Assembly (NCBI GenBank): GCA_938020445.1
Contig: CALIIC010000025.1
Coordinates: 1 to 37,778 of the forward strand
Length of the DNA: 37,778 nt
Origin: an uncultured Flavobacteriaceae bacterium
GTDB lineage: Bacteria; Bacteroidota; Bacteroidia; Flavobacteriales; Flavobacteriaceae
Direction of reading: 5' to 3'
The position numbers and the translations under genes were made by a program. Of this stretch, positions 1,943-31,823 are shown in pieces (within the stretch, counting starts at the first letter, position 1; every line of letters begins with the position of its first letter). The notes under the pieces are model-generated. The model did not search any database, was not told where the DNA came from, and was given only the letters and a program-made list of their open reading frames with translations.

Positions 1943-2704
1943 CTAGGAGTTCACCCAATTTTTAAAGGGAGTCGCCTTGGCTTTGCTAACGACAATGCGT
2001 TCTGCGGAGGGCGGATTTACATTTACGATCAGCTTGCCGCCAAAATACTGTTTGATTTTTACGATGGCATTTCTATTGACGATAAACTGCCGGTTGGCCC
2101 GATCAAAGACGCTCGGATCCAATTCTTGCTCCAGATCCTCGAGCTTTTTATCCATAGCGAATACCTTGTTCTGTAGGGTCACGACTTTGACGATTCCGGT
2201 GTCAATATAAAAATAGGCGATCTCTTCGGTCTTTACGGGAATCAGCTCGTCCCGATGTGCTATCAGGTAATTCGACTTGTATGTTTTCTGCTGTCCTTTT
2301 AGCAACCGCATCACCTCTGTAACGTCCGTCTTGGACAAGGTCTGTGCATTCGTCAAGTTTCTGAACTTTTCAAGGGCCTTTGCGAGTTCTTCTTGGTGCA
2401 CCGGTTTCAAAATATAATCGATGCTGTTTACCGTAAAGGCCTTTAAGGCATATTCATCATAGGCGGTAGTGAAGATGATGGGAATGGATACCGTTACATG
2501 GTCAAAAATCTCAAAGCTTAGCCCATCTCCCAAATGGATGTCCATAAAAACCAGCGCCGCATCGGTGGGTTTGGAGAAGTAGGCAATGCATGATTTTACG
2601 GTATCCAACACCGCTACTACTTCTATATCGGTATCCAAGGCATTGAGCAGGTAAGTCAAATGGTCACTTGCCGTAAGTTCATCTTCTACTAGTACAACTT
2701 TCAT
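1943..2704 (-). CDS. LytTR-family DNA-binding response regulator
   Basis: A 253-residue two-domain regulator. Residues 1-115 are a receiver domain: acidic pocket E7-D8-E9, phospho-acceptor D55 in VFMDIHLGDG, Thr at 79-80 (FTTAYDEYA) and Lys100 in YILKPV. Residues about 145-250 form a LytTR DNA-binding domain, with the typical ELIPVKTEEIAYF and FDRANRQFIVNRNAI segments. It should bind direct repeats two helical turns apart when phosphorylated. The gene starts 6 bases after the sensor kinase gene, so the two are co-transcribed, and a clear terminator follows. Probable targets are the two matching promoter regions at 1695-1797 and 4847-4949. Confidence 0.93.
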   Translation of the reverse strand: MKVVLVEDELTASDHLTYLLNALDTDIEVVAVLDTVKSCIAYFSKPTDAALVFMDIHLGDGLSFEIFDHVTVSIPIIFTTAYDEYALKAFTVNSIDYILKPVHQEELAKALEKFRNLTNAQTLSKTDVTEVMRLLKGQQKTYKSNYLIAHRDELIPVKTEEIAYFYIDTGIVKVVTLQNKVFAMDKKLEDLEQELDPSVFDRANRQFIVNRNAIVKIKQYFGGKLIVNVNPPSAERIVVSKAKATPFKNWVNS

Positions 2705-2710
2705 AGCTTT

Positions 2711-3832
2711 TTAATTCAATGGGAGCCTCACCCTAAAGATATTGTTTGTATTTGAAATAACGATGCGCTTTTTTTCTAACAGATCATAGCGTTTGGCCAA
2801 ATTGGCCAATCCGTTGCCGGTACTATCCACATAGGTGCTTTTGGGCTGTATGTTGTTTTCCACTGTCAGGTGGTTCCCCTCGGTAAAAACGCGTACCTGA
2901 AGGGGTTGGTCCTCCGAAATCTCATTGTGCTTCACGGCATTTTCGACCAGCAGTTGCAGTGATAAAACGGGGAGCTTCGTTTGAAGCCACTTGTCATCGA
3001 TCACAAGGGTTATTGAAAAACGCTCCCGATACCTGGTTTTGATCAGGTGTACGTAGTTTTCCAAAAAAGTAAGTTCGTCTTGCAGCGGTACGGTATCTTG
3101 GCTGCCACTTTGTAAAATATAGCGGTACAGGGATGATAGTTTGTTCACAAAGGTGGTTGCTTCTTCATTGTCGCGTACCAAGGTATTCAAGGAGTTCAAA
3201 GAGTTGAACAAAAAATGGGGGTTTACCTGGTTTTTTAAGGCGGCAAGCTCACTTTTTAATTGCTCTTGCTTCAGCCGTGCGTTCTCCATGGCATCTGCTT
3301 TGTGGATGATCTGATAACGCAGTACGCCAGATACAAAGACCAGGATCAAGGCAACGATACCATACACGAAATGCACCAGGCCCAGTTCATTTTTGGAGAT
3401 TTGCTGCTGTACCAACAGCGGATAAAAGAAATTGAACAGCACTGTAAAAAAAACAAAAAGGAGGGTGTTTGAAAAAATGAGGAGTCCTATTCTCGTAGTT
3501 TTACTTTTGCTATTCGAGACATACTTCCAATTCGTATTGAGCTGCAATACGGTCCAAAAAAGGGCAGTGGCAAAAATAAATCGAAAGGCAATGTCATTAA
3601 AAGAAGCAGTCGTAAAGGCATCGGTAAGTTCTTCGGTAATCCGGTAGTGTGTTAAAACCCTGGGCAAGGTCAGTAGCAACGCCACTAACAATGCAATGGG
3701 CAAAAGTACCTTTTGTTTTACTCTTTTAAACTTCAACGCGATGCTAATTTTGGCTGATTGGACTTGCAAACTGGTATACGAATGTAACGCAAATTGCCTT
3801 AGTCCCCTTCCCATATTCTTGAATACTATCAT
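2711..3832 (-). CDS. LytS/YehU-type membrane sensor histidine kinase
   Basis: A 373-residue kinase from the ATG at 3832; the frame stays open to a TTG at 3865 that falls in a terminator T-tract, and an ATG at 3814 is also possible. About four hydrophobic segments fill the N-terminal half (for example LLPIALLVALLLTLP, LVHFVYGIVALILVFVSG). A short coiled-coil linker follows, then the His_kinase box NQVNPHFLFNSLNSL with phospho-acceptor His206. The C-terminal ATPase region has LLVENAVKH as the N-box and GNGLANLAKR as the G-box. There is no obvious extracellular sensor domain, so the signal is probably perceived in the membrane. It partners the LytTR regulator 6 bases downstream. Confidence 0.92.
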   Translation of the reverse strand: MIVFKNMGRGLRQFALHSYTSLQVQSAKISIALKFKRVKQKVLLPIALLVALLLTLPRVLTHYRITEELTDAFTTASFNDIAFRFIFATALFWTVLQLNTNWKYVSNSKSKTTRIGLLIFSNTLLFVFFTVLFNFFYPLLVQQQISKNELGLVHFVYGIVALILVFVSGVLRYQIIHKADAMENARLKQEQLKSELAALKNQVNPHFLFNSLNSLNTLVRDNEEATTFVNKLSSLYRYILQSGSQDTVPLQDELTFLENYVHLIKTRYRERFSITLVIDDKWLQTKLPVLSLQLLVENAVKHNEISEDQPLQVRVFTEGNHLTVENNIQPKSTYVDSTGNGLANLAKRYDLLEKKRIVISNTNNIFRVRLPLN

Positions 3833-3860
3833 TTGAAATACATCTTTAGGAGCTATTTTA

Positions 3861-3903
3861 AACAAAGAACTGCCGAAGTTAGGGGGAATCCCTCCGGCAG
3901 TTC
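3861..3903 (-). terminator. Terminator or attenuator between lipoprotein and kinase genes
   Basis: GAACTGCCG (minus strand 3903-3895) pairs perfectly over 9 bp with CGGCAGTTC (3875-3867), followed by TTTGTTT. The 19-base loop contains a further GGG/CCC pairing. It lies 53 bases after the stop of the lipoprotein gene and only about 30 bases before the kinase start. Kinase transcription therefore needs either read-through or a promoter buried in this stretch. Confidence 0.65.
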
Positions 3904-3955
3904 ACCAACAGCATCATCCATCTCAACCTATCCAACCAAATAGCAGTTCTAATTT

Positions 3956-4597
3956 TTACTGAAGCAAGTTTTTGACAATCCCCTTGGAAAAATCCTCTGA
4001 AGTAATGCTTAGGTTATCGGGGTCGTCTACTTCGGAGGTGATGACCGAAATTAATTGGTCTTCGCTTGGTTTGGTCAAATCATACACCAAGGTTTCAAGG
4101 ACATAGGTCACTCCTTCTTTTTCCGTTGTATGGTATTGGGTGTAGTACGATCCCGTGTAACCGTAAAAGCTTCGATAGCCTCTGTACCGATAGGGAAACG
4201 GTTCTAGGTAAACGGTTTCACCGGTGGTGACCAGAGTGGTATACTTTTTTGAATCTACCAGATGGGATAAAATGACGACATCTATATCATTATTGCGCAG
4301 CTTCGTGATCACTTCTTTGATCTGCTCTTTTTCAACCTTCTCGGTGGGATCGCTAAACGGAAATCGTACATGGCTTTCTATAGATGTAAATCCGTTCTCA
4401 GAGAGTTCTTCGACCAAATCACGTTCAAACCGTATTTGCACGCTCCGCTCTTCCGTTTTGCTGACTACCAAAATATTCTTGTCTTTGATGTCGAGCGTTT
4501 TTAGCCCCCGCCAAGAGTCGGTCACCTTCACAGATGAACACCCGACCAACAGGCCTAACAATACCCCAATGATTCCTACTAATTTTAAGCGTCTCAT
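3956..4597 (-). CDS. Paralogous lipoprotein family, copy 1
   Basis: A 213-residue lipoprotein with signal peptide and lipobox LLVGCSS (Cys at residue 20). The mature part begins KVTDSWRGLKTLDIKDKNIL and contains LVVSKTEERSVQIRFERDLV, SIESHVRFPF and, near the C-terminus, TYVLETLVYDLTKP. The same landmarks in the same order occur in the proteins at 29119-29778 and 31115-31723, so all three are paralogues. The middle of this copy is rich in Tyr, Arg and Gly (RYRGYRSFYGYTGSYY). Function is unknown; the conserved N-terminal part resembles a small alpha/beta domain with periplasmic exposure. It lies 22 bases downstream of the 69-residue ORF, with a near-identical start region, and should share that gene's LytTR-type promoter. 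Confidence 0.75.
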   Translation of the reverse strand: MRRLKLVGIIGVLLGLLVGCSSVKVTDSWRGLKTLDIKDKNILVVSKTEERSVQIRFERDLVEELSENGFTSIESHVRFPFSDPTEKVEKEQIKEVITKLRNNDIDVVILSHLVDSKKYTTLVTTGETVYLEPFPYRYRGYRSFYGYTGSYYTQYHTTEKEGVTYVLETLVYDLTKPSEDQLISVITSEVDDPDNLSITSEDFSKGIVKNLLQ

Positions 4598-5594: not shown

Positions 5595-6023
5595 ATGATG
5601 AACCTCAAAAAAATTACACTAAGCATTTGTGGATTCCTCTGTTTTTTTACTGCATCGGCGCAGGACTTGACAGCGGATCAGAAAGAACAACTCGAATACA
5701 AGGTATCTGTCTTTACATCCAATGATAAAGAACTTCAAGAATTATGGTATGAAGACCGTCTGGATGAAATGAAGGTCAAGGGAAAGTTGCGCGAAGACTA
5801 TCTCAGAATAGTAAAATACCACGCCCTAAAAATGGAACAGCTCAAAGGAGACAAATTTAAAATTGGTGCGGACCAAATGAAAGCGAAACTTCAGGAACGG
5901 GTCGCGCTGATGGAGGCAGACGCAAAAGAGGTGTTAGATCAGCGGCAGTTCGAAATACACCAAAAAACCTGGAAAGCGATCATCAAGGCGATCATTCTTA
6001 GGGAAGGCCTAAATGTAAAATAA
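5595..6023 (+). CDS. Small secreted helical protein
   Basis: A 142-residue protein with a Sec signal peptide ending in TASAQ (cleavage near residue 23). The mature part is almost entirely helical and charged (LTADQKEQLEYKVSVFTSND, MKAKLQERVALMEADAKEVL). The LTADQKEQL start is reminiscent of the LTxxQ helical periplasmic proteins related to Spy and CpxP, but the similarity is too weak for assignment. It precedes the C4-dicarboxylate transporter gene by 55 bases and may be the first gene of the operon. A second ATG follows immediately at 5598. Role unknown; a periplasmic chaperone-like or sensor role is possible. Confidence 0.7.
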   Translation: MMNLKKITLSICGFLCFFTASAQDLTADQKEQLEYKVSVFTSNDKELQELWYEDRLDEMKVKGKLREDYLRIVKYHALKMEQLKGDKFKIGADQMKAKLQERVALMEADAKEVLDQRQFEIHQKTWKAIIKAIILREGLNVK

Positions 6024-6078
6024 GCAGCTATTGATTGCTCTCAATAAAACATACTACAAATTTTAAAACAAGAATATT

Positions 6079-7380
6079 ATGATTTGGATAGAATTACTCG
6101 TCGTGCTCTTTTTTATCTTCCTTGGTTCCAAAATGGGAGGTATTGGCATCGGCTACGCCGGTGGTGCCGGGGTGGTGGTGTTGACCCTCATCTTTGGATT
6201 GGAAGCCGGTTCGGTACCGGTAGATGTCATTCTCATTATCATGGCAGTCATCTCGGCCATCGCCGCCATGCAAAAAGCGGGGGGCTTGGATTACTTGGTG
6301 CACCTCTCGGAATCCCTGCTTCGCAAAAATCCGAAGCGCGTTACGTTTTTGGGGCCTACCGTCACCTATTTCATGACCTTGTTCGCTGGTACCGGGCATA
6401 CTGCCTATGCCGCATTGCCAGTGATTGTCGAGGTTTCCAAAGAAGGGAATGTACGGCCCTCAAAACCCTTAAGTATTTCGGTAGTGGCTTCGCAAATTGC
6501 CATAACGGCTTCCCCCATTTCGGCTGCAGTCGTAATTTTCGCAAGTTTTTTAGAACCGCTAGGGGTCTCGTATCTGCAACTCTTGGCAATTGCCATTCCC
6601 GCTACCCTATTAGCCTGTGTAGCAGGGGCTATCGTGGCCAACAGATTGGGGAAACCACTTGACCAAGACCCCGTTTATCAAGAACGCTTAAAAGCCGGTT
6701 TGGTAAAACAGAAAAGCACCGAAACGCATAAGGATACCAAAGAGGCCAAAAGGTCTGTAGGTATTTTTTTGATTGCCATTGCCATCATCGTGACCTATGC
6801 GACCATCATCTCTAAAAAAGTGGGCTTGATCGAAAACCCGACAATTCCCCGCAATGAGGCCATTATGGCGGTCATGTTGTTGGCAGCCACTGTAATTGCG
6901 TTGGTTTGCAAGCTTAAAATGGCCGATATCCCAAGCATGTCGACTTTTAAGTCGGGCATGAGCGCAGCGATCTGTGTCTTGGGCGTCGCTTGGTTGGGAG
7001 ACACTTTTGTCAGCAACCATATTGAAGAAATCAAAGAGGCCGCAGGAGGCATGTTGAACCAATACTCCTGGCTACTAGCAGTGGTGTTGTTCTTTGCCAG
7101 TATGTTGTTGTATTCGCAGGCAGCCACCACGACTGCTTTGATGCCGGCAGCCTTGGCCTTGGGAGTAAGTCCCATCGCCGCCATCGCCTCATTTGCCGCG
7201 GTAAGTGCCTTGTTTGTATTGCCTACCTACCCCACCCTTTTGGCAGCGGTAGAAATGGATGATACGGGCACCACCAAAATAGGTAAATATGTATTTAATC
7301 ATTCCTTTATCATTCCGGGTACCGTAACCATCGCGGCCAGTGTACTATTCGGATTTCTCATAGGAAGTATCGTACTATAA
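6079..7380 (+). CDS. dcuA: DcuA/DcuB-family C4-dicarboxylate transporter
   Basis: A 433-residue polytopic inner-membrane protein, full length for the family. It matches DcuA-type sequence closely across the N-terminal half: GGIGIGYAGG, DVILIIMAVISAIAAMQKAG, GGLDYLV, FAGTGHTAYAALPVI and SQIAITASPISAAVV. DcuA/DcuB proteins exchange external fumarate, malate or aspartate for internal succinate during fumarate respiration and also take up aspartate. The substrate fits the downstream genes: aspartate from the periplasmic asparaginase enters, aspartase makes fumarate, the SdhCAB complex reduces it, and succinate leaves. The aspartase gene begins 18 bases after the stop codon. The choice of dcuA over dcuB rests on the GIGIG and SAMQ-type motifs. 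Confidence 0.92.
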   Translation: MIWIELLVVLFFIFLGSKMGGIGIGYAGGAGVVVLTLIFGLEAGSVPVDVILIIMAVISAIAAMQKAGGLDYLVHLSESLLRKNPKRVTFLGPTVTYFMTLFAGTGHTAYAALPVIVEVSKEGNVRPSKPLSISVVASQIAITASPISAAVVIFASFLEPLGVSYLQLLAIAIPATLLACVAGAIVANRLGKPLDQDPVYQERLKAGLVKQKSTETHKDTKEAKRSVGIFLIAIAIIVTYATIISKKVGLIENPTIPRNEAIMAVMLLAATVIALVCKLKMADIPSMSTFKSGMSAAICVLGVAWLGDTFVSNHIEEIKEAAGGMLNQYSWLLAVVLFFASMLLYSQAATTTALMPAALALGVSPIAAIASFAAVSALFVLPTYPTLLAAVEMDDTGTTKIGKYVFNHSFIIPGTVTIAASVLFGFLIGSIVL

Positions 7381-7398
7381 TTCAAAAAAAAGAAACAG

Positions 7399-8823
7399 AT
7401 GAAAACAAGAACAGAAGAGGATTTGTTAGGGAAAATGGAGCTCTATGATGAACTCTATTACGGAGTACATACGAAGAGGGCCATCGATAATTTTAAAATA
7501 TCGAACTCAAAAATCGGGGACTTCCCAATGTTTGTAAAAGGGTTGATGTTGACCAAAAAGGCTTGTGCTGCCGCCAACAAGGAGATTGGCACCATTCCAG
7601 GGGAAAAGGCGGATATGATTCTGCAAGCCTGTGATCATATCTTGGACAACTTAAAAAAGTATTCGGAGTTCTTTCCCTCCGATGTTTTCCAAGGTGGTGC
7701 CGGTACGTCGGTAAATATGAATGCCAATGAGGTGATTGCCAATGTCGCTCTAGAATTGAATGGGCATGCAAAGGGAAGTTATGACATTTTACACCCCAAC
7801 GATCATGTAAACAAATCACAATCTACCAATGATGCCTACCCCACGGCATTTAGGGTGGCCGTCTTTTACTATATGAACCATCTGTTGGAAAAGATCAACT
7901 TGCTTACCACAAGTCTTGATAAGAAAGCGGCCGCTTTTAAAAACGTTATCAAAATGGGAAGAACGCAGCTACAGGATGCGGTACCCATGTCGCTCGGAGA
8001 TGAATTTGGAGCATGGTCTACCAACCTGAAAGAAGAAACGAAAAACCTAAAACATTGTCGTGACCTTATTTTGGAGGTAAATCTAGGGGCTACGGCGATC
8101 GGAACAGGGGTAAATGCGCCAGATGGCTTTACCGAGCTTTCCATTGGATACCTGCAACAGTATACCAAGGCAAGTTTCGTAAAGGCCGAAAACCTGATAG
8201 AGGCTACCTCCGATTGCGGTGCCTATGTTATGATTTCCGGGGCTTTAAAAAGAACCTCGGTCAAGCTGTCCAAAATATGTAATGACCTACGATTGCTCTC
8301 TTCTGGGCCACGTTGTGGATTGAATGAAATCAACCTGCCGGAAATGCAGGCAGGTTCATCCATTATGCCGGCAAAAGTAAACCCGGTGATCCCGGAGGTA
8401 GTGAATCAGGTATGCTTTAAGATCATCGGGAACGACGTTACCATTTCGTTTGCCGCAGAGGCCGGTCAATTGCAACTGAATGTCATGGAGCCCGTAATCG
8501 CACAGTGTATGTTCGAATCGGTCGAATTGCTTTCAAATGCCTGTGTGACCCTTGCCGAGAAGTGTGTGGATGGCATTACGGCCAATGAGGAGCACACCAA
8601 GCAAATGGTTTTTAATTCCGTAGGAATCATCACTTTTTTAAATCCGTATATCGGACATCATATGGGTGATATTTTAGGAAAGGAAGCCGTTGCCACCGGG
8701 AAGAATATCAGAGAATTGGTACTTGAAAAAGAGCTGCTTTCCGAAGAAGAATTGGATAAGATATTGAGTGTAGAAAACCTTATGCATCCAAAATATACGG
8801 CAACGCTGCACAAACAGAACTGA
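7399..8823 (+). CDS. aspA: Aspartate ammonia-lyase (aspartase)
   Basis: A 474-residue member of the aspartase/fumarase superfamily that converts L-aspartate to fumarate and ammonium in the cytoplasm. The superfamily signature [11 protein letters not shown] is at residues 319-329; Ser320/Ser321 belong to the mobile loop carrying the catalytic base. Other conserved segments are [14 protein letters not shown] near residue 100, [12 protein letters not shown] near 139 and [11 protein letters not shown] near 188. The length and the N-terminal RTEEDLLG start fit AspA rather than fumarase C, and the neighbouring asparaginase and Dcu transporter agree. It is the third gene of the operon. Confidence 0.95.
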
Positions 8824-8863
8824 TTCCAAAACGAACAAATACACACCTATAAATTCCGTTATT

Positions 8864-9934
8864 ATGAAAGCGCTAAAAATGAAAATAATCGCCTTCCTAA
8901 TGGTAGTTGCCATGACTACTCTTGGGTTTGGGCAAGACACCGCACTTCCCAATGTTAAAATCCTGGCAACGGGAGGCACCATAGCCGGATCGGCTTCATC
9001 TGCCACTTCGGGGAGCTATTCCGCAGGGCAGGTCGGTATCCAGACCATGATCAATGCCGTACCCGGAATCCGGGAAATTGCAGATGTCTCGGGAGAGCAA
9101 ATTGCGAATGTAGGTTCACAAGACATGTCTGTCGCAATTTGGTTGAAGTTGGCGAATCGCATTAATGAACTACTGGCTTCCGATGAGGTCGATGGCATCG
9201 TCATAACGCACGGTACCGATACCCAGGAAGAGACCGCTTATTTTTTGAGTTTGGTAGTCAAAAGTGACAAGCCCGTGGTAACGACCGGTTCTATGCGTTC
9301 TTCGACTTCGATAAGTGCCGAAGGTCCTTTGAATTTATACAATGCAGTGGCCATAGCCGCCGACCCCCAGTCGAAAGGAAAAGGTGTGATGGTGTCGCTC
9401 AACGACCAAATACACGCCGCCCGTGATGTGAGCAAAATGAACACCACCAATGTCAATAGCTTTCAATCGCCTATCAAAGGAATGCTCGGCGGGGTATTTT
9501 ATGGCAGACTCGGATTTTTTCGCGAACCGAACACAAAATTCGGGAACACGAGCGAGTTTTCCATCGCCGGTGTTGCAGAATTGCCGCGTGTCGATATCGT
9601 GTATGCCTATGCGGATATGTCTCCTGACTTGATCGACATGCACGTGAAAGCCGGTGCCAAAGGCATCGTTATTGCGGGTGTCGGGAATGGAAATATGACC
9701 GATGCGATCCTAAAAGCGGCGAAAAAAGCCTATGAAGATCAGGGGGTAATGGTGGTCCGAAGTACCCGCGCGGCCACAGGCTGGGTTTTGCGCGATAACG
9801 AATTTAAGGATGCCGATTACCACACCATTGCATCGGGCGATTTAAACCCCGCCAAGGCGCGGATCTTATTGATGCTTTCGCTTTCCAAGGGGAAAGAATT
9901 GAAGGAGATGCAACAGCTTTTTGATACGTATTAG
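8864..9934 (+). CDS. ansB: Type II periplasmic L-asparaginase
   Basis: A 356-residue protein with a signal peptide (cleavage near residue 24, FGQ-D) followed by the full asparaginase fold. It hydrolyses L-asparagine to L-aspartate and ammonium in the periplasm. Catalytic residues are in place: Thr39 in ILATGGTIAG, Tyr52, Thr118-Asp119 in THGTDT and Lys191 in RDVSKMNT. The closing segment (DLNPAKARILLMLSL, then QLFDTY) matches the E. coli AnsB C-terminus. The signal peptide marks the high-affinity type II enzyme, which feeds aspartate to the Dcu transporter in anaerobic metabolism of other bacteria. The start could also be the ATG at 8879. Confidence 0.95.
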   Translation: MKALKMKIIAFLMVVAMTTLGFGQDTALPNVKILATGGTIAGSASSATSGSYSAGQVGIQTMINAVPGIREIADVSGEQIANVGSQDMSVAIWLKLANRINELLASDEVDGIVITHGTDTQEETAYFLSLVVKSDKPVVTTGSMRSSTSISAEGPLNLYNAVAIAADPQSKGKGVMVSLNDQIHAARDVSKMNTTNVNSFQSPIKGMLGGVFYGRLGFFREPNTKFGNTSEFSIAGVAELPRVDIVYAYADMSPDLIDMHVKAGAKGIVIAGVGNGNMTDAILKAAKKAYEDQGVMVVRSTRAATGWVLRDNEFKDADYHTIASGDLNPAKARILLMLSLSKGKELKEMQQLFDTY

Positions 9935-9951
9935 TATAATAGAAATGGATC

Positions 9952-10620
9952 ATGGCGATGAATCAATTGTTTTTTAGGAAAACCATTATTGCGGGCACGG
10001 GCTTGTTCCTGTGCATTTTCTTGGTGGTTCATTTATCGGCGAATTGCATTTTGTTGCTTCCAGAGGAAACGGCAAGGGGGTTGTACAACTCGTATTCGAC
10101 CACATTAAGGGAAAGCCCTTTGATAAAGATCGTTGCCTATTTGTTATACCTGTCCATTGTTCTTCACGTGGTGTATGCCTTATTGATCACTATCAGAAAT
10201 AGGAAAGCAAAGCCGCAAAAATATGTGGTGAACCATTCCAAGGAGAATAGCAGCTGGACTTCTCAAAATATGGGCCTCATCGGTACGATGATCCTACTTT
10301 TTATTGTAGTGCATCTGGCCAATTTTTGGGCAAGGATCAAGTTGGGAATGGGCGATGTCGTAGGCTTGGATGCTGCGGGGAATGTAGATGTGTACGAGGT
10401 GACCAGTAGCCTGTTCCATAATATCTATTATGTGATTTTCTATACCGCCTTGGCAATTCCATTGGCATTGCACCTGCATCATGGTTTTAAAAGCGCTTTT
10501 AAGACCTTGGGTTTTTACCATAAAAAAGGGCTTCGGATGGTTGCCAAGATAGCGCTGGTCTATGCCATCATTATGGGGGTAGGCTTTGGAATCATACCTT
10601 TTATCGTATATCTCAAATAG
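9952..10620 (+). CDS. sdhC: Succinate dehydrogenase/fumarate reductase cytochrome b subunit
   Basis: A 222-residue membrane protein with five predicted helices, the size and layout of the single-polypeptide di-haem cytochrome b of Bacteroidota SdhCAB/FrdCAB. Four well placed histidines could ligate two haems: H27 (FLVVHLSAN), H72 (IVLHVVYAL), H121 (FIVVHLANF) and H174 or H176 in the LALHLHHG segment. It anchors the flavoprotein and iron-sulfur subunits and exchanges electrons with menaquinone. It begins 17 bases after the asparaginase gene and ends 9 bases before the flavoprotein gene. No sdhD is present or expected for this type. Confidence 0.92.
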   Translation: MAMNQLFFRKTIIAGTGLFLCIFLVVHLSANCILLLPEETARGLYNSYSTTLRESPLIKIVAYLLYLSIVLHVVYALLITIRNRKAKPQKYVVNHSKENSSWTSQNMGLIGTMILLFIVVHLANFWARIKLGMGDVVGLDAAGNVDVYEVTSSLFHNIYYVIFYTALAIPLALHLHHGFKSAFKTLGFYHKKGLRMVAKIALVYAIIMGVGFGIIPFIVYLK

Positions 10621-10629
10621 TGTAGGAAG

Positions 10630-12540
10630 ATGAAATTAGACGCAAAAATCCCGGAAGGCAGGCTCGAAGACAAGTGGCGTAATTACCAAGTAAAGTCACA
10701 GCTCATCAACCCTGCCAATAAAAAAAAGTTGAGTGTTATTGTCGTTGGTTCGGGTTTAGCGGGAGCCGGTGCGGCATCCACCTTGGCAGAGTTGGGATAT
10801 GATATAAAATGCTTTTGCTATCAAGATTCGGCCAGAAGAGCACATTCGGTAGCCGCACAGGGGGGAATCAATGCAGCTAAGAACTATCAACACGATGGGG
10901 ACAGCGTTTGGCGTATGTTTTATGATACCTTAAAGGGAGGTGATTTCCGATCAAGGGAAGCCAACACCTATCGGCTTGCCGAACTTTCGGCGCCGCTCAT
11001 TGACCACTATGTGCAGCAGGGAGTGCCCTTTGCCCGTGAGTACGGCGGTACCTTGGTCAATAGAAGTTTTGGCGGGGTGCAAGTACAACGAACCTTTTAT
11101 GCAAGGGGGCAGACCGGGCAACAGTTATTGATGGCGGCCTATTCGCAGCTGTATAAAATGGTACGCGCCAAAAAGGTAGAAATGTTTCCGCGGAGCGAGA
11201 TGTTAGACCTTGTAGTCATCGACGGAAAAGCCAAAGGGATTATTGTTCGTGATTTGGTTACGGGCGAACTCAAACGCTATGCGGCCGATGCCGTAGTTTT
11301 GGCTACCGGAGGCTATTCCAGGGTGTTTAGACTCTCTACCCTAGCGATTGGCTGCAATGGCAGTGCCCTGTGGAAAGCGCATAAAAAGGGTGCGTTTTTT
11401 GGAGCACCCAGTTTTACACAAATACATCCCACCGCCTTGCCCCAATCTAGTGAGGCACAATCAAAACTCACCTTGATGTCCGAATCCTTGCGGAACGACG
11501 GACGAATTTGGGTGCCCTATCAAAAAGAAGATACCCGAAGGGCCAACGATATTCCCGAAGCGGAAAGAGATTATTATTTGGAACGCCGCTATCCCAGTTT
11601 TGGAAACTTGGCTCCTAGAGATATTGCATCACGCGCTGCCAAAGAACGAATTGACGCCGGTTTTGGGGTAGGAAGATTAAAAAATGCCGTGTATCTCGAT
11701 TTCAAACACGCAATCGAAAGATTTGGTTTGGAAACCATTAAAGACCGCTATGGCAATCTCTTTAAAATGTATAGGAAGATTACGGGCATTGATGCGTATA
11801 AAGAGCCGATGCAAATTTCCCCGGCCGCACATTTCTCTATGGGCGGACTCTGGGTCGATTACGAACTAATGACCACCATTCCCGGATTATATGCCGTGGG
11901 AGAATGTAATTTTTCAGACCATGGCGCCAATCGCTTGGGAGCCAATTCTCTGTTGCAAGCAAGTGTTGATGGATATTTTATACTTCCCAATACGATCAAC
12001 AATTATTTGGCCAATGAAATGAAGGCAGACCATCCTACCACAGACCATCCGGAGTTTGTTAAGGCAGCGCAGGAAGTGAAGGCAATTATTGACCGCGTCT
12101 TAGCGGTAAACGGGACAAAGACCGTAGACCACTTTCATAGGGAATTGGGGAAGGTCATGTGGCAAGAATGTGCCATGAGCCGAAATAAGGCGGGATTGGT
12201 AAAGGCGATTGCACAAATACAAGGAATTCGAGATGCTTTTTGGAGCGATGTAAAAGTTACAGGAGATAGCAGTGAATTGAACACGGAACTGGAAAAAGCA
12301 TTGCGATTAGCCGATTTTATAGAATTGGGAATGCTAATGTGCACGGATGCCCTGGAGCGAGACGAATCTTGTGGAGCGCATTTTCGCGAAGAATTTCAAA
12401 CGGAAGAGGGCGAAGCCGTTCGGGTGGATGAAGCCTATTCCTATGTATCTGCTTGGGAATATACCAACGGAGACTTCAAACTGCACAAAGAAGCATTGGA
12501 ATTTGAATTTGTACAACCGTCCGTACGAAGTTATAAATAA
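10630..12540 (+). CDS. sdhA: Succinate dehydrogenase/fumarate reductase flavoprotein subunit
   Basis: A 636-residue FAD protein interconverting fumarate and succinate at the cytoplasmic face of the membrane. The dinucleotide-binding motif [13 protein letters not shown] covers residues 39-50. His72 in [12 protein letters not shown] is the expected covalent FAD attachment site. HPTALP and [19 protein letters not shown] carry the substrate-binding and proton-transfer residues, and [11 protein letters not shown] is the usual C-terminal part of the active site. Sequence alone does not say whether it works mainly as fumarate reductase or succinate dehydrogenase. Placement after aspartase and Dcu favours fumarate reduction in vivo. 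Confidence 0.95.
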
Positions 12541-12546
12541 GACACT

Positions 12547-13290
12547 ATGCAAGTAACATTCAAAATTTGGAGGCAAGAGGGGCCGAATGACAAAGGTGCC
12601 ATCAGAGCATATGAAGTGGATGGTTTAACCGAGGATATGTCTTTTCTTGAGGCATTGGACCATTTGAACGAACTACTCGTTCTTAAGAATGAAAAAGTAA
12701 TCGCATTCGAGTACGACTGCCGTGAGGGAATCTGCGGGCAATGCGGTGTTTTCATCAATGGGCGTGCCCACGGCCCACTCGATAATATGACCACCTGTCA
12801 ATTACATATGCGCAGCTTTAAAGATGGCGATACCATTGTGATAGAGCCCTGGCGGGCGGCATCTTTTCCAGTCATCAAGGACCTGATCGTAGACCGTTCC
12901 GCTTTTGACCGGATTATTGAGCAGGGGGCTTTTATCAGTGCGAAGACCGGTACGGCACCGGAGGCAAATGCCATCCCTATTCCTAAAGAAGTCTCGGACA
13001 GGGCAATGGATGCTGCTGCCTGTATCGGTTGCGGAGCCTGCGTCGCTACCTGTAAAAATTCTTCGGCCGCTCTTTTTACCTCGGCCAAAATAAATCATTT
13101 AAATGGTTTGCCACAAGGGCGGGCAGAAGAGCATAAGCGTGTTGCCGAAATGACGTTTCAAATGGAAATAGAAGGTTTTGGTAGCTGCACCTTTACCGGT
13201 GCCTGCGAAGTGGAATGCCCCGAAGGGATTTCCGTTATCAATATAGCAGAAATGAATGCAAGAGTTACGAAAGCAAAATTTTTTGGATAA
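12547..13290 (+). CDS. sdhB: Succinate dehydrogenase/fumarate reductase iron-sulfur subunit
   Basis: A 247-residue electron-transfer subunit. The [2Fe-2S] cluster ligands are C58, C63, C66 and C84 (DCREGICGQCG and TTCQL). C159, C162 and C165 (ACIGCGACVATC) with C224 bind the [4Fe-4S] cluster. C169, C214 and C220 (CTFTGACEVECPEG) fit the [3Fe-4S] cluster. All three clusters are complete, so electrons can pass between FAD and the di-haem cytochrome b. The gene starts 6 bases after the flavoprotein stop and is followed after 17 bases by the porin gene. Confidence 0.95.
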   Translation: MQVTFKIWRQEGPNDKGAIRAYEVDGLTEDMSFLEALDHLNELLVLKNEKVIAFEYDCREGICGQCGVFINGRAHGPLDNMTTCQLHMRSFKDGDTIVIEPWRAASFPVIKDLIVDRSAFDRIIEQGAFISAKTGTAPEANAIPIPKEVSDRAMDAAACIGCGACVATCKNSSAALFTSAKINHLNGLPQGRAEEHKRVAEMTFQMEIEGFGSCTFTGACEVECPEGISVINIAEMNARVTKAKFFG

Positions 13291-13307
13291 AAATCAAATA
13301 CTACCCA

Positions 13308-14444
13308 ATGAAAAAATTGATCGCTACAAACGGAAAAATGATATTGTTAATGACTGTATTGCTCTTTATGTCAGGAATACAAGCGCAGACGCCCCAGGAC
13401 AACAAAGAATCGAATACCAATTGGATTGATGCGATTAGCTCTCGTGTAACCCCCTATGGCAGTCTCCGAATCGGCGCCGGTTTTGCCGAAGAAGGTGAAA
13501 TCGGGATTTCTAATAATGCACCTCGTATTGGTATAAAGTTAAAACATGCGCTGTCTAAAAATGAGGTCGATAATTTTAATGTTATCGGAGGAATAGAATT
13601 GGGGCTGAACCTGGTCTCAAGAGATGAAACCGTTGAATTTGCGGTTGATCCGGGGGCCGGAATTGCACAAGTGGGTGATGCGGTATTTGCAAGGTTGGGC
13701 TATGCGGGCTTCTCCTATAAAGATCTGGAATTTACGTTTGGGAAGCAAAATTCGGTGTACTACCAATTGGGCGCCAATCAAGTGGATAAATTCTCGGCCT
13801 TCGGAGGGGCGGCCATCGGGGTATGGAATATTTCGGATGGCGGTGTCTCGGGAACGGGAAGGGCCAATCAATTATTAAAACTGACCTATGCCCATGCCGG
13901 TTTGAAAATTGGCGTTCAAGGGCAAGCACGGAATATTTCCGTAAACAGCAAATCTTTAGACACCTATGGTCTAGGTGCCAGTTATACGTTTGGAGGCTTT
14001 GCAATCGGTTTGGGATACAACAAAGTACTCGACGGGGTTGAAGACCCTTTGCCCAATCAGGCAAAAGATGGCGATGAGGCTTTTGTCGCCTCGGCCTCCT
14101 ATGAAAAAAATCGCTTTTCAATTGCGGCCTCCTATGCCGATTTAAAACAACACCAGCGGTTGGGAGACGATTTCTACGATGCATCGGGAGTGGAGTTTTA
14201 TATAGGGTATATCTTTTCAAAGAACAAACGTTGGAAGGCGGCAACGGGATTTAACTATTTAAGCCCAGAGGATGACGAAGGCTTGGGCGATTTTAACACC
14301 GCTTTTGCCATCGGCGAAGTCAGTTACGCTTTTAAAAAAGGAAGCAAAATATTTGCAGCCACTAAAATTGACCAAAGCAAGGATGACATTGGCGACCGCA
14401 GAAATCAAAGTGTTTTTGGTATCGGGGTTAAATTTGATTTTTAA
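13308..14444 (+). CDS. Outer-membrane porin
   Basis: A 378-residue beta-barrel protein. The ATG at 13308 gives a clean signal peptide ending in IQAQ (about residue 26); an in-frame ATG at 13215 would lie inside sdhB and was rejected. Alternating hydrophobic strands run throughout (for example YGLGASYTFGGFAIGLGYNK) and the protein ends in Phe (GVKFDF), the usual outer-membrane assembly signal. It resembles general gram-negative porins. Because it sits in the same operon 17 bases after sdhB, it may admit asparagine, aspartate or other dicarboxylates to the periplasm, where AnsB and Dcu act; that role is inferred. Confidence 0.8.
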   Translation: MKKLIATNGKMILLMTVLLFMSGIQAQTPQDNKESNTNWIDAISSRVTPYGSLRIGAGFAEEGEIGISNNAPRIGIKLKHALSKNEVDNFNVIGGIELGLNLVSRDETVEFAVDPGAGIAQVGDAVFARLGYAGFSYKDLEFTFGKQNSVYYQLGANQVDKFSAFGGAAIGVWNISDGGVSGTGRANQLLKLTYAHAGLKIGVQGQARNISVNSKSLDTYGLGASYTFGGFAIGLGYNKVLDGVEDPLPNQAKDGDEAFVASASYEKNRFSIAASYADLKQHQRLGDDFYDASGVEFYIGYIFSKNKRWKAATGFNYLSPEDDEGLGDFNTAFAIGEVSYAFKKGSKIFAATKIDQSKDDIGDRRNQSVFGIGVKFDF

Positions 14445-14470
14445 TCCAATAAATTTACCAAAAATTACGA

Positions 14471-15085
14471 ATGGGATTTTTCGATATTCTTGATATGCTG
14501 GGTACGATCGCTTTTGCCATCTCTGGGGCATTGATGGCCATTAAACGGGAAATGGATGTGTTTGGCATCTTCATTGTTGCCTTTGTTACGGCATTGGGAG
14601 GAGGCATTTTAAGGGATGTCTTTATCGGAAATACACCTGTTTGGTGGATGGGACATTTTTATGTCGTCCATTTTATAAGTGTTTCCGTTCTTTTGGCGAT
14701 TCTATTTCGAAACAAGATCTATTTTTTGGCAAAATCGCTCTTTATATTCGATACCATAGGCCTTGCCATATTTAGCATAAGCGGCGTACAAATCGGGGTT
14801 TCCGCAAACCTAGACCCAGCGGTGAGCGTGGTGCTCGGAATTATGACCGGATGTTTTGGCGGGGTCATTCGGGATATTTTATGCAACGAGATTCCCATCA
14901 TTTTTAGGAAGGAAATCTATGCTTTGGCGTCCCTAGCGGGAGCAGTGTGTTATATTATTCTATACTCTTTGAATTTTGATAAAAGCATATCCTATATAAG
15001 TACGATTTCCCTAGTAGTTGTTATTCGGGTTTTAGCGGTAAAATATGGCATTGCCTTGCCTACCTTTACCATCAAAAACAAATAA
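14471..15085 (+). CDS. UPF0126/TRIC-type membrane channel or transporter
   Basis: A 204-residue protein with about seven hydrophobic segments in two homologous halves. Each half contains the family's glycine-rich signature: TALGGGILRDV in the first, GCFGGVIRDIL in the second. This is typical of the YadS/YicG family (UPF0126), related to trimeric intracellular cation (TRIC) channels; some members have been linked to glycine transport. It starts 26 bases after the porin gene and is followed after 22 bases by the lipid A deacylase, so it seems to belong to the operon. Its substrate here is unknown. Confidence 0.88.
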   Translation: MGFFDILDMLGTIAFAISGALMAIKREMDVFGIFIVAFVTALGGGILRDVFIGNTPVWWMGHFYVVHFISVSVLLAILFRNKIYFLAKSLFIFDTIGLAIFSISGVQIGVSANLDPAVSVVLGIMTGCFGGVIRDILCNEIPIIFRKEIYALASLAGAVCYIILYSLNFDKSISYISTISLVVVIRVLAVKYGIALPTFTIKNK

Positions 15086-15107
15086 AACGTCCTTTAAAAT
15101 TGTATCT

Positions 15108-16256
15108 ATGGCTAGACTCTTGACCCTTTGTTTGCTTTGCTGTTTCGTTGCTGTGAAGGCGCAGACCACCTCCGACGGAGAAATACCTAATAAGTTCCGA
15201 TCCATCGAGGTCAAATCGAATTATGGGAGCTATCTCTATACGGGAACGGCCTTGAGCGAGGCCGGGTTCTTAGATGCAGGCTATGGCGCGATCAATGTAA
15301 AAATTGGATGGCAGTCGAGCAATACGGAAAGTTGGTCCGCCTATTACAAATATCCTACTTATGGTATTGGGCTGTATTCAGGATTCTTAGGAAATGCGGA
15401 AGTTTTTGGTAACCCAAGTGCGGTTTATGGGTTTGTTGATTTTCCGATTGGGAATCCGAACCGGCGCAATAAGTTCAGTATTGAACCCTCTTTGGGAATA
15501 ACCTATAATTTACAGGAATACAACGCCGAAGAAAATCCGATAAATGATGCTTTTGGCGCTAGGGCAGCGGTGTATTTTGGTCTTGATATTGGTTTTGAAT
15601 ACCGTTTTACCCGAGAGTTGGATTTGACCTATGGGGTCGATTTTACACACTTCAGCAATGGTAGCAGCTATCAGCCCAATTTGGGGTTGAACCTCTTTGG
15701 AATCAACCTGGGCGTAAAATACCATTACAATGCTGCCCAAAGAGCGGTCGACAATGACCCTTATACCAAAAACCTACTCCAAGCCAGGTATAAATCCCCC
15801 AAAAAGACCAAACCGACAAAAATCAACGAAAATTCAATATCGATATATCTTGCAGGCGGAGGAAAACAAACAGATGAAGACGGCGGCACCGACCGACAGT
15901 TTGGCGTTTTTTCGGGTGTTTTAGATTATGAACACCGCTTCAATGCCATACATGGCATCACAGGGGGGCTTGATTTCTTTTATGATAACTCCTTACAAGA
16001 GTTTGACCAGGCGGTGGACAGAACTTCCATTGGAATACATGCGGGCTATGATTTCAATTTTTGGAAAATGGTCATAAAGGCGCAGATAGGGACCTACCTT
16101 ACAGACAATTTGGGCAAGGGTGCCTATTTTATGCGGCCCGCCCTTCGCTATAACATCAACAAAACACTCTTTGCCCAGTTTGGGTTAAAGACCCTTGATG
16201 GCGGGGCGGCGGATTATATTGAATTCGGAATCGGGTTGAAGCCATTTAAATGGTAA
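15108..16256 (+). CDS. PagL-like lipid A deacylase (acyloxyacyl hydrolase family)
   Basis: A 382-residue outer-membrane protein. The ATG at 15108 gives a signal peptide ending in VKAQ; an upstream in-frame ATG lies inside the preceding gene. Residues 20-205 match the PagL barrel, including the catalytic THFSNGSSYQPNLGLNLFG with His181 and Ser183. PagL removes the 3-O-linked acyl chain of lipid A at the outer leaflet. Residues about 240-382 form a second run of barrel-like strands not found in minimal PagL proteins, ending in aromatic residues (KPFKW). It is the last gene of the tight operon; the next gene encodes a different type of lipid A deacylase. Confidence 0.8.
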   Translation: MARLLTLCLLCCFVAVKAQTTSDGEIPNKFRSIEVKSNYGSYLYTGTALSEAGFLDAGYGAINVKIGWQSSNTESWSAYYKYPTYGIGLYSGFLGNAEVFGNPSAVYGFVDFPIGNPNRRNKFSIEPSLGITYNLQEYNAEENPINDAFGARAAVYFGLDIGFEYRFTRELDLTYGVDFTHFSNGSSYQPNLGLNLFGINLGVKYHYNAAQRAVDNDPYTKNLLQARYKSPKKTKPTKINENSISIYLAGGGKQTDEDGGTDRQFGVFSGVLDYEHRFNAIHGITGGLDFFYDNSLQEFDQAVDRTSIGIHAGYDFNFWKMVIKAQIGTYLTDNLGKGAYFMRPALRYNINKTLFAQFGLKTLDGGAADYIEFGIGLKPFKW

Positions 16257-16361
16257 ACCAAAAATCGTAAACTGCCAACGTTTTTCCCGGCTGTTCTCAA
16301 AAATTTGACCTTTTGTAAATAAATAGGGCTTTGGTTGACTAAGGTTCAAAGGAGTAGCAAT

Positions 16362-16379
16362 ATGAAAAAAATCCTATGA
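16362..16379 (+). other. Five-codon leader ORF overlapping the next start
   Basis: ATGAAAAAAATCCTATGA encodes MKKIL and its stop overlaps the ATG of the LpxR-like gene as ATGA. AGGAG (16350-16354) is spaced 7 bases from this ATG but 21 bases from the downstream one. One extra A in the A7 tract would fuse the leader in frame with the downstream protein. It may act by translational coupling, reflect slippage in the A tract, or be a sequencing error. Confidence 0.4.
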
Positions 16380-17356
16380 AGTCAAGCAAATTTGGTAGTG
16401 GTTGCATAGGGTATCTATTTCTTTTGCTTACTCATTGGGGTACTGCTCAAAATACGCCTGCTTTTGATAGGGAGATTTCATTTTCCTCAGCAAATGATGC
16501 CTTTGTGGTCTGGCAGAATTCGGATCGGTTCTATAGCTACGGACTGGGGCTGAACCTGAAATTTAAAAAGGAGAAAATCCTGGGGCTACAACGGTATTTT
16601 CCCAAAAAGACGGGATATTTTTTTGAGGTCGGCCTCCGCTTGGAAGGCTATACCCCCACCAATAAAACGGTCAGCGAGGCCGACATACAACAAAATACCA
16701 TTTCTTTTGACCGCCCCTATGCGGGCTTGTTGTTCGGAAATTTTAACGTCACCTATGCTTTTGACCGCTCTTTTTTAAGGGGAAAGGCCCTGCTAGGGGT
16801 TATGGGGCCGGCTTCCTTCGCGGATGATTTTCAAGGGTGGTTTCATGATAATGTGACCGATGACCCCGTATTTGAAGAATGGCGGTTTCAAGTGCCGAAT
16901 CAGCTTATCGCAAACATAGCCCTTAGCTATGCCTACGATTTCATCCCGGAACACCGATGGTTCGATCTGTATGGAATGCTCCACACCCGTTTGGGGAACC
17001 TGTACATCGATGCGAGCCCGGCCTTGGGGCTGCGACTTGGAAAGTTCAATAAATTGGGGGAATCCGTTGGTATGGATAATAACATCTTATCCAATGCCGG
17101 TACAGAACTCTTTTTGCAATCGACCATTAGCAGCTCCTTGCATATTTTTGACGGTTCGGCACAGGGAAATCTGCTCAACAACGATTTTGAATATGGCGTT
17201 GCCGATTTAAACCCCGTTAGTGCCACCATGATTCAAAGTGTCTATTTTTCAGCAAGGCGCTTTTCCTTGGGAATCGAGCATTATTTCACCTTTGGGAAGG
17301 TAGTATCGCACGAGCGACATCTCTATGCAAGAACAATTTTAAAATATAAATTTTGA
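16376..17356 (+). CDS. LpxR-like lipid A 3'-O-deacylase
   Basis: A 326-residue outer-membrane protein of the LpxR type, which removes the 3'-acyloxyacyl group from lipid A. The expected landmarks are present: Asn40-Asp41 in SFSSANDAFV, the DRFYSYGLGL strand with Ser54 where Thr is usual, DRPYAG (112-117) and a GPASFADDFQGWFHDN segment with His157 as candidate catalytic base. The N-terminal hydrophobic stretch ends in GTAQ and serves as signal peptide, and the C-terminus is aromatic (KYKF). The ribosome-binding site fits an upstream five-codon ORF better than this ATG, so the true start may involve coupling. Confidence 0.8.
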   Translation: MKSSKFGSGCIGYLFLLLTHWGTAQNTPAFDREISFSSANDAFVVWQNSDRFYSYGLGLNLKFKKEKILGLQRYFPKKTGYFFEVGLRLEGYTPTNKTVSEADIQQNTISFDRPYAGLLFGNFNVTYAFDRSFLRGKALLGVMGPASFADDFQGWFHDNVTDDPVFEEWRFQVPNQLIANIALSYAYDFIPEHRWFDLYGMLHTRLGNLYIDASPALGLRLGKFNKLGESVGMDNNILSNAGTELFLQSTISSSLHIFDGSAQGNLLNNDFEYGVADLNPVSATMIQSVYFSARRFSLGIEHYFTFGKVVSHERHLYARTILKYKF

Positions 17357-21679: not shown

Positions 21680-23500
21680 ATGAAATTTAAAGAGGAAAAA
21701 ATAAGGGAGTTGATAGCTCAAATAGAAACCATTTTGGAAGCGATCACGCTTGAAGAACCCAATTCTGATTCTTTCTTGGAAAAGGTACACCCTACTTACT
21801 TGAAGAGTGCCCAAAACCTAGTTCACTATGCGACGTTTAGGACCTTCGATTTAAGAACGACCCAGAAAAAGTTAAAGAATATGGGGTTGACCAGACTGGC
21901 AAAGGCAGAGGGACATTTGATGGGGAGTCTACTCAAAACAAGATTTATCCTTTATCGGTTGTTGGATTCGCAAGCCGTAGAAATTTCAAAGACGGGGCCC
22001 TATATAAAAAATGGCAAAAGGCTGCTGGCAAATCACACCAAAGAGCTTCTTGGGTACCGTTCCAAAGGAAGAAGGGTCCGGATCATGGTCACGCAGCCAA
22101 CCGCGTCCGCCTACGATTATCAAATGGTTCACGAGATGGTGCAGCATGGAATGAATTGCGCGCGTATTAACTGCGCCCATGACCATCCTGAAGTTTGGGA
22201 AAAAATCATTCAAAATGTAAAGCGGGCTTCAAAGGCCTTTGGTAAGAACGTAAAGATTGCGATGGACCTAGCCGGGCCAAAAATACGCACAGGGAGCATC
22301 ACGCCCGGGCCGAAGATTCGAAAATTCTCACCTGAACGCAATGAAAGTGGGAACATAGTGCGTCCGGCAGTACTCGTATTGATTCCTGAAATACAGCAGG
22401 ATTCGGAACCCAATGCGTTACCCGTGGGGTACGATTGGCTCAAAAAATTGGCGTTGGGCGATAAACTTAGGGTAACAGATACCAGAAATAAAGTGCGAAA
22501 GTTTAGAGTAGTCGAGATCAATGAGGAACGGGTACTGTTGCATTGCAATAAAACCTCCTATATCGCCACAGGTGCCGTCATCCACTGTGCGAACCGGGAA
22601 CTTGAAAATGGCATTATAGGAGCGCTTCCGCCGATAGAACGGTCCATTTTACTCCATACAGATGACCTGCTTACGATCACCAAAACCAATAGCCCTGGGA
22701 AGCGCGCAGTATTTGATGAAACCGGAAACCGTATCGAAAAACCAAGTATCGCTTGTCAGCTCCCGGAGGTTTTTAACAAAATAAAAGAAGGAGAGGCCAT
22801 CTTATTTGATGATGGTAAGATCGAAGGTTGCATAGAGGCCATATTCCCAGATTATTTTGAGGTGCGCATCACGCGGGCAAACGAAAAAGGGTCTAAACTA
22901 AAGGCAGAAAAGGGAATGAACTTCCCGACCACCGATCTCGGAATTAGTGGCCTTACGGCCAAAGATAAAATCGATCTGGAGTTTGTCGCCAAGCATGCCG
23001 ACCTGGTGAATTTTTCCTTTGTAAACTCCAAAGAGGATGTGGAAGAATTATTGGTTGAATTGAAAAAATGGGATGTGCTGAACAAGTTGGATATCATTCT
23101 TAAAATCGAGACCCGATTTGCTTTTGATAATCTGATAGAAATTCTCCTTACCGCCATGAAAGTCAAAAATATTGGGGTTATGATCGCCAGGGGTGACCTT
23201 GCCGTAGAAACCGGATGGGATACCATTGGAAAAGTACAGGAAGAGATATTGGCGATATGCGGAGCTGCACACGTACCCGTTGTATGGGCAACACAGGTGT
23301 TGGAAAGTTTCGCAAAAAAAGGCTTGCCTTCCCGGGCCGAAATAACAGATGCAACCGCTTCGTTAAAGGCAGAATGTGTTATGCTGAACAAAGGGCCTTA
23401 TATCAATGAGGTATTGCAATTACTGGACAAAATTCTTTCTCGCATGGAACGGTTTCATGAGAAAAACGAAACGATGCTTCCAAAAATGGAAAAATTATGA
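21680..23500 (+). CDS. pyk: Atypical pyruvate kinase without C-terminal domain
   Basis: A 606-residue protein whose residues about 130-590 are pyruvate-kinase-like. Substrate and metal motifs are recognisable: RIMVTQPTASAYDY and GMNCARINCAHDH at the start of the barrel, KIAMDLAGPKIRTG, the catalytic ILKIETRFAF with Lys475, GVMIARGDLAVETGWD, and WATQVLES followed by the SRAEITDA segment. The family's C-terminal regulatory domain is absent: the chain ends about 30 residues after MLNKGPY, where classical enzymes have MLSGETA. Instead there is an extra helical N-terminal region of about 130 residues. It probably makes ATP and pyruvate from phosphoenolpyruvate, but allosteric control should differ. 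No metabolic gene partner lies beside it. Confidence 0.82.
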   Translation: MKFKEEKIRELIAQIETILEAITLEEPNSDSFLEKVHPTYLKSAQNLVHYATFRTFDLRTTQKKLKNMGLTRLAKAEGHLMGSLLKTRFILYRLLDSQAVEISKTGPYIKNGKRLLANHTKELLGYRSKGRRVRIMVTQPTASAYDYQMVHEMVQHGMNCARINCAHDHPEVWEKIIQNVKRASKAFGKNVKIAMDLAGPKIRTGSITPGPKIRKFSPERNESGNIVRPAVLVLIPEIQQDSEPNALPVGYDWLKKLALGDKLRVTDTRNKVRKFRVVEINEERVLLHCNKTSYIATGAVIHCANRELENGIIGALPPIERSILLHTDDLLTITKTNSPGKRAVFDETGNRIEKPSIACQLPEVFNKIKEGEAILFDDGKIEGCIEAIFPDYFEVRITRANEKGSKLKAEKGMNFPTTDLGISGLTAKDKIDLEFVAKHADLVNFSFVNSKEDVEELLVELKKWDVLNKLDIILKIETRFAFDNLIEILLTAMKVKNIGVMIARGDLAVETGWDTIGKVQEEILAICGAAHVPVVWATQVLESFAKKGLPSRAEITDATASLKAECVMLNKGPYINEVLQLLDKILSRMERFHEKNETMLPKMEKL

Positions 23501-31723: not shown

Positions 31724-31823
31724 AAGCGCTGGTTGGTAAGTTTTCTTCAAGATATAAAAAATAGCAGTTTTATCACCCACAATTGGTTTTAAGATCGCAA
31801 TTTAAAATTCACCTTCCTAAAAC

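Follow-up and report, generated by a model that had tools for sequence, protein, structure and literature searches.

A conserved gene block with a second complex II, a probable module for asparagine-driven fumarate respiration in Flavobacteriaceae

The question raised by this locus is what use a member of the Flavobacteriaceae could make of a complex II (sdhCAB) encoded next to genes for asparagine and aspartate breakdown, when the marine members of this family are mostly regarded as aerobic polymer degraders. The window, i.e., the whole stretch of 37,778 nucleotides under analysis, is contig C25 of a 4.66-Mb assembly of 207 contigs that is 81.9% complete; genes not found in this genome are thus provisional absences. 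According to the map of open reading frames (ORF), ten genes, all on the + strand, span positions 5595–16256 (Table 1). The gaps between successive genes, from dcu to the PagL-like gene, are of 18, 40, 17, 9, 6, 17, 26 and 22 bases, while 55 bases separate u142 (5595–6023) from dcu, and 119 bases the PagL-like gene from the next gene. The ORF map and family searches confirmed in this respect an earlier annotation made from the letters of the window (the original prediction), which had given the same gene set and gaps of 6–40 bases from Dcu through the PagL-like gene, and had read the block as an operon for fumarate respiration fed by asparagine. The small gaps and the conserved gene order described below suggest that the block is one transcription unit; a promoter and terminator scan gave results near chance (25 promoter-like sites vs. 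24.7 expected, and 18 terminator-like sites vs. 14.7).

It can be said that the block is quite probably a dedicated module for fumarate respiration at low oxygen. In the proposed route, the order of steps of which is established enzymology, the porin would pass asparagine or aspartate across the outer membrane, both being its inferred substrates, and the exported type II asparaginase would convert asparagine to aspartate in the periplasm. The DcuA exchanger would then bring aspartate in and take succinate out, aspartase would split aspartate into fumarate and ammonia, and the second SdhCAB would work as a menaquinol:fumarate reductase (FrdCAB), with the succinate formed leaving through the block's own DcuA. 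The ordinary SdhCAB, encoded on contig C187, would stay as the aerobic enzyme of the tricarboxylic acid (TCA) cycle. The block would be under the control of oxygen.

The evidence for this interpretation begins with complex II. The check for another sdhCAB in the genome, which had been set as the key test of the original prediction, found an ordinary one on C187, adjoining neither dcu, aspA nor ansB; the genome holds two complete sdhCAB sets, and the one-copy outcome named beforehand as contrary to the prediction did not occur. The two SdhA are 66% identical over residues 3–369 and 52% over residues 361–636, the two SdhC are 33% identical, and the window SdhA is without a 21-residue and a 7-residue insert that are present in the ordinary copy. 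The window subunits scored 140 bits with TIGR02046 (SdhC, cut-off 96), 1094 bits with NF005749 (SdhA, cut-off 866) and 392 bits with NF005746 (SdhB, cut-off 243), and the C187 copy was also above the three cut-offs. These scores, the conserved histidines of SdhC, four of which are expected to bind two hemes, and the histidine of covalent flavin adenine dinucleotide (FAD) attachment place the window complex among the b558-type (type B) succinate:quinone/quinol:fumarate reductases. The window SdhA reached 248.6 bits, of the 932.7 needed, with the model of the enterobacterial-type FrdA equivalog (TIGR01176). A search of the own genome with the Pfam family Sdh_cyt gave no match, the window SdhC itself being without any Pfam family match.

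Concerning the supply enzymes, the exchanger scored 609 bits with TIGR00770 (cut-off 331) and is 58% identical to Escherichia coli DcuA vs. 37% to DcuB. It is of the DcuA type by resemblance, as claimed in the original prediction, and antiport is predicted. As the accessible part of one report indicates that a DcuA-type transporter may be almost equally identical to both proteins (43 and 41%; PMC10634366), the clear difference found here is helpful. Aspartase scored 729 bits with the AspA model TIGR00839 (cut-off 681), and a separate class II fumarase is encoded on contig C60. The asparaginase belongs to the type II subfamily (TIGR00520, 446 bits, cut-off 314), although it falls below the narrower equivalog model of L-asparaginase 2 (NF008304, 425.6 vs. 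506 bits); its best matches in the PDB are L-asparaginases, e.g., 5k4g and 1wsa, and its N-terminus, signal-like by eye, predicts export to the periplasm. The Dcu and the type II asparaginase of the block are the sole copies found in the own assembly. For the porin, a profile of 14 homologues matches OmpF weakly (7.6e-05).

The distribution of this complex II was studied at several levels. Window-type SdhC (at least 77% identity) occurs in six of 99 genomes (the own genome and 98 relatives), namely the own one, four of nine of the same genus and one of another genus, and each has an ordinary copy as well. A collection search with a single protein, which reached close relatives and gives lower bounds, found at least 78 loci, 75 of them at 66% identity or more and three at 37–40%; the records of the 75 loci bear the names of Flavobacteriaceae, Saprospiraceae/Lewinellaceae, Cryomorphaceae, Weeksellaceae, Cyclobacteriaceae and Flammeovirgaceae. 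Among 149 genomes spread over the class, no window-type SdhA was found, the best full-length match besides the own one being 67% identical and partial pieces of ordinary SdhA reaching 71%. When SdhA genes were counted (E ≤ 1e-20) in 40 carrier genomes, drawn from 43 of the 78 loci, exactly two were found in every genome, one ordinary (71–94% identical to the C187 copy) and one window-type (60–63%). A tree of 124 SdhA sequences was built by a quick method with midpoint root, 34 of its 119 inner branches being starred. A long-stemmed branch (SH-aLRT 100) sets all 72 window-type rows to one side, and the 21 ordinary flavobacterial rows are grouped apart (99), the C187 SdhA being grouped with the copies of relatives without the window type. 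Only L119 and L120, among 31 class-level or distant rows, are nearest to the window-type clade. These two, from other Bacteroidota (G238 and G217), are additional second copies of complex II just outside the clade; further second copies, seen by SdhC only and outside the tree sample, occur in L023 (G087) and L025 (G095).

Across 820 genome pairs, some of whose records are metagenome-assembled genomes (MAGs), mean identity was 86.9% for the window-type vs. 82.9% for the ordinary SdhA, with a Spearman coefficient of 0.52. In Aquimarina algicola, compared to eight other Aquimarina, the ordinary SdhA is 94–96% identical and the window-type one 85–86%. This suggests that the window-type complex II has spread laterally, and a slower rate of change in its clade may add to the pattern. 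When the label of dcu-type locus was mapped on a tree restricted to the 72 window-type rows, it changed six times vs. 21.5 in shuffles, which indicates that the block was mostly inherited together with its complex II, though gained more than once.

The gene neighbourhoods were compared in 75 loci plus the window (26 dcu-type and 50 others), with neighbours lacking a domain scan named by eye and with lower-bound counts where loci stop at contig ends. The order dcu-aspA-ansB-sdhCAB-porin on one strand is kept in 23 of the 75 relatives' loci, which argues that the block is not due to chance, and in 24 of the 26 dcu-type loci including the window; two Psychroserpens loci are rearranged as sdhCAB-u142-dcu-aspA-porin, without ansB. 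Within the dcu type, aspA and porin are present in 26/26 loci, a u142 homologue in 25/26 and ansB in 24/26, whereas neither porin nor u142 homologue occurs in the fetched stretches of the 50 others. The TRIC-family gene (15/26) and the PagL-like gene (13/26), window included, are less constant, so that the conserved core stops at the porin and not at the PagL-like gene, to which the original prediction had extended the operon. The 50 other loci have aspA in three cases, an A/V-type ATPase catalytic subunit in 18 and a universal stress protein (Usp) in 21. In L077 (3956–13364) a window-type sdhCAB lies near an A/V-type ATPase, the A and B subunits of which were recognized by Pfam and further subunits by eye. 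In Allomuricauda (L065) an ATP-type phosphoenolpyruvate carboxykinase (PEPCK; Pfam) is directly upstream of complex II, with Usp there too, and L066 has a gene of equal length at the same position, the PEPCK domain being confirmed for L065 alone. In the genus of the window, aspA-ansB is directly upstream of window-type sdhC in three genomes (G001, G005 and G009), and a Usp gene takes that place in G003. In a Saprospiraceae MAG (L063, 8503–9962), an aspA beside sdhCAB is broken into two reading frames.

Some observations weigh against fumarate respiration, and the same ones favour an alternative which is rather unlikely but deserves attention, i.e., that the block serves aerobic or micro-oxic catabolism of asparagine and aspartate for carbon and nitrogen, with the second complex II as a bifunctional or alternative Sdh for other conditions. 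The direction of catalysis is unmarked in the protein: the catalytic residues tested, the covalent-FAD histidine and the conserved SdhC histidines are identical in both copies, and His 27, 72, 121, 174 and 177 of SdhC do not vary among the 76 window-type and 21 ordinary sequences compared. Enterobacterial FrdA has Glu at the position of FrdA Glu49, where SdhA has Gln; every one of the 72 window-type and 21 ordinary rows has Gln there. Both this position and the catalytic residues were dropped as marks of direction, since they do not separate the copies. The FrdA of Campylobacter jejuni is called bifunctional in the part of PMC4178425 available, so a wholly reductive role is not assured. The nitrite reductase NrfA, sought in 80 genomes (43 carriers and 37 non-carriers; strong match, E < 1e-160), is scarcely commoner in carriers (13/43) than in non-carrier relatives (9/37), and the own assembly gave no NrfA match. 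Five genomes with weak NrfA matches only (E > 1e-5; two carriers and three non-carriers) were excluded before counting, two of the five being over the family cut-off by the tool. As a test, enrichment of NrfA was unpersuasive.

With such near-equal figures, the mere presence of NrfA says little, and its position is the informative part. In eight of the nine dcu-type genomes with NrfA (G101, G105, G107, G108, G109, G112, G113 and G116), nrfA is 4.3–14.3 kb from the window-type sdhA, and in the ninth (G138) both are on separate contigs, as in the four other carriers with NrfA (4/4). The rough chance of a given gene lying within 15 kb on either side in a 5-Mb genome is about 0.6%, for genomes that are here related; the eight comprise at least four lineages (two Flavobacteriaceae records akin to the window, Aquimarina, Psychroserpens and the L069 record). 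In five of the eight genomes, which were mapped gene by gene, nrfHA-ccsBA is divergent from u142 (G107), directly downstream (G116) or 11–14 kb away (G101, G105 and G112); a domain search in L052 confirmed NapC/NrfH, NrfA and ResB/CcsA. These neighbours, and PEPCK, Usp and A/V-type ATPase in other genomes, speak against the catabolic alternative, as do the full ordinary sdhCAB already in the genome and the DcuA-type exchanger, which would couple aspartate uptake to C4-dicarboxylate efflux. Reduction is the best explanation for an additional complex II that goes with a fumarate producer, because running it oxidatively would duplicate the product of aspartase; it seems reasonable to interpret from this context that the window complex II acts as a reductase in vivo. 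The reverse flow, in which succinate would be imported and oxidized, and the resulting fumarate aminated to aspartate as a way to assimilate nitrogen, is very improbable. Aspartase and complex II are indeed reversible, but aspartase is unusual for ammonium assimilation, and the exported-looking asparaginase of 24 of the 26 dcu-type loci points to aspartate made outside the cell. As to the window sdhCAB being the ordinary TCA enzyme, near asparagine genes by accident, the family models are unable to separate Sdh from Frd here, but this idea has hardly any credit left: it is already contradicted by the C187 copy, by the place of its SdhA among those of relatives without the window type and by the two SdhA of all 40 carrier genomes.

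The fumarate-respiration reading of the original prediction was thus partly supported. The second sdhCAB, the DcuA type and, in several relatives, the nearness to nitrite-respiration genes were in its favour, while its inclusion of the PagL-like and TRIC genes in the core did not hold, nor did its statement that the components were known separately. According to the accessible text of PMC10634366, Actinobacillus succinogenes has an ansB-aspA-dcuA cluster (Asuc_0140-0142), for which an asparagine-aspartate-fumarate route to fumarate respiration was put forward and transport data on the exchanger were given. This cluster shares with the block the three steps, the proposed route and the DcuA-type exchanger; that text names the three genes as the cluster, whereas the block also contains complex II and porin, and its host is a flavobacterium with a separate ordinary Sdh. 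In C. jejuni, for which PMC4178425 discusses fumarate respiration fuelled by aspartate and asparagine, there are likewise AspA, DcuA/DcuB, AnsB (secreted in some strains) and frdABC, but also Mfr in addition to the FrdA mentioned above, and a one-operon arrangement is not described in the part of that source available. The available part of PMC11204068 calls the asparagine-aspartate-fumarate pathway central in Sutterella.

Other points of comparison are E. coli K-12 and the ordinary flavobacterial complex II. E. coli K-12 (L167) is like the block in having aspA adjacent to dcuA, the gene of the 58% identical exchanger, and unlike it in that frd is about 12 kb off, as four genes including frdC and frdD; its Frd is heme-free, and its ansB is presumably located elsewhere. 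The ordinary flavobacterial SdhCAB (own contig C187, L006) is above the cut-offs of the same families as the window copy, and differs from it by the inserts, identities and neighbours given before.

The asparaginase-aspartase-DcuA route is therefore already known (PMC10634366, as far as its accessible text goes), and the new part is that Flavobacteriaceae have it in a single block together with a porin and a dedicated, apparently laterally spread complex II of the b558 type. A literature search, with subscription papers mostly outside it, did not meet such a block with b558-type complex II and porin, the patchy clade or the alternative neighbours. The module looks like a patchily distributed accessory set, probably spread laterally, that lies near nitrite-ammonification genes in several relatives. 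On a wider scale, the balance tips slightly towards the Bacteroidota sharing an unrecognized, laterally spreading clade of second complex II. Its members would be devoted to fumarate reduction, both in flavobacteria supposed to be aerobic and in Saprospirales/Cytophagales, and would be combined with interchangeable cassettes for supply, namely one for asparagine (DcuA-AspA-AnsB-porin), one with PEPCK, or one with A/V-type ATPase plus universal stress proteins. If the proposal is true, a portable asparagine-to-succinate module would allow these bacteria to dispose of electrons in sediments, particles and hosts where oxygen is low, release of succinate and ammonia from protein-rich detritus would be expected, and capable strains could be recognized from genome data. 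Caution would then be needed, as not every flavobacterial sdhCAB should be annotated as a TCA enzyme.

Table 1. Features of the block and of its surroundings (positions refer to the window unless a locus is named).
Feature	Position	Strand	Support
u142, 142 aa, secreted-looking, heads the block	5595..6023	+	signal-like start by eye
dcuA-type C4-dicarboxylate/aspartate exchanger	6079..7380	+	TIGR00770 and PF03605 above cut-off
aspA, aspartate ammonia-lyase	7399..8823	+	TIGR00839 equivalog above cut-off
type II L-asparaginase (ansB), N-terminal signal-like segment	8864..9934	+	TIGR00520 above cut-off
sdhC2/frdC, b558-type cytochrome b subunit	9952..10620	+	TIGR02046 above cut-off
sdhA2/frdA, flavoprotein, 636 aa	10630..12540	+	NF005749 above cut-off
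sdhB2/frdB, iron-sulphur subunit	12547..13290	+	NF005746 above cut-off
outer-membrane porin (Porin_4)	13308..14444	+	PF13609 8e-17
TRIC-family (Pfam Gly_transporter) membrane protein, accessory	14471..15085	+	PF03458 3e-49
PagL-like outer-membrane protein, accessory	15108..16256	+	PF09411 2e-14
LytTR response regulator, candidate regulator	1943-2704	-	PF04397, PF00072
histidine kinase, candidate regulator	2711-3865	-	PF06580
TTGAACCAAATTGATAA motif sites	L047:5591, L048:5470, L051:1825, L055:5429, L056:5432, L058:441, L059:5409, L097:5582, L113:5461		

The small protein u142 gave no match in Pfam and NCBIfam searches. Its AlphaFold2 model (mean pLDDT 80) is all-helical, with six helices, and a fold search with it against the PDB returned nothing at E ≤ 0.001.

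Upstream of the block and divergent to it, the LytTR regulator, the histidine kinase and an uncharacterised lipoprotein-like gene occupy window positions 1943–4597 (- strand); the regulator/kinase pair is in the fetched stretch of 12/26 dcu-type loci vs. 1/50 others. Direct repeats with a period of 20–23 bases upstream of the block were considered as LytTR sites and dropped, as they were found in less than 1% of shuffles in just 3/26 loci, from related Aquimarina. Another observation is a near-invariant 17-base motif, TTGAACCAAATTGATAA (at most one mismatch), 93–219 bases upstream of u142 in nine loci; when up to two mismatches were allowed, there were 16 matches in 1.43 Mb, one of them at window 4702, this being a raw count.

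Elsewhere in the window, the PagL-like protein and an LpxR-like outer-membrane protein adjoin at 15108–17356, both families being named for lipid A deacylases. A protein of 606 aa is encoded at 21680–23500, with its best match to the pyruvate kinase barrel in residues 350–570 alone. On the - strand, the product of 29841–31076 has a Tle1-like phospholipase catalytic domain (PF09994), and its gene lies between two paralogues (29119–29778 and 31115–31780) of an uncharacterised family that is also present at 3956.

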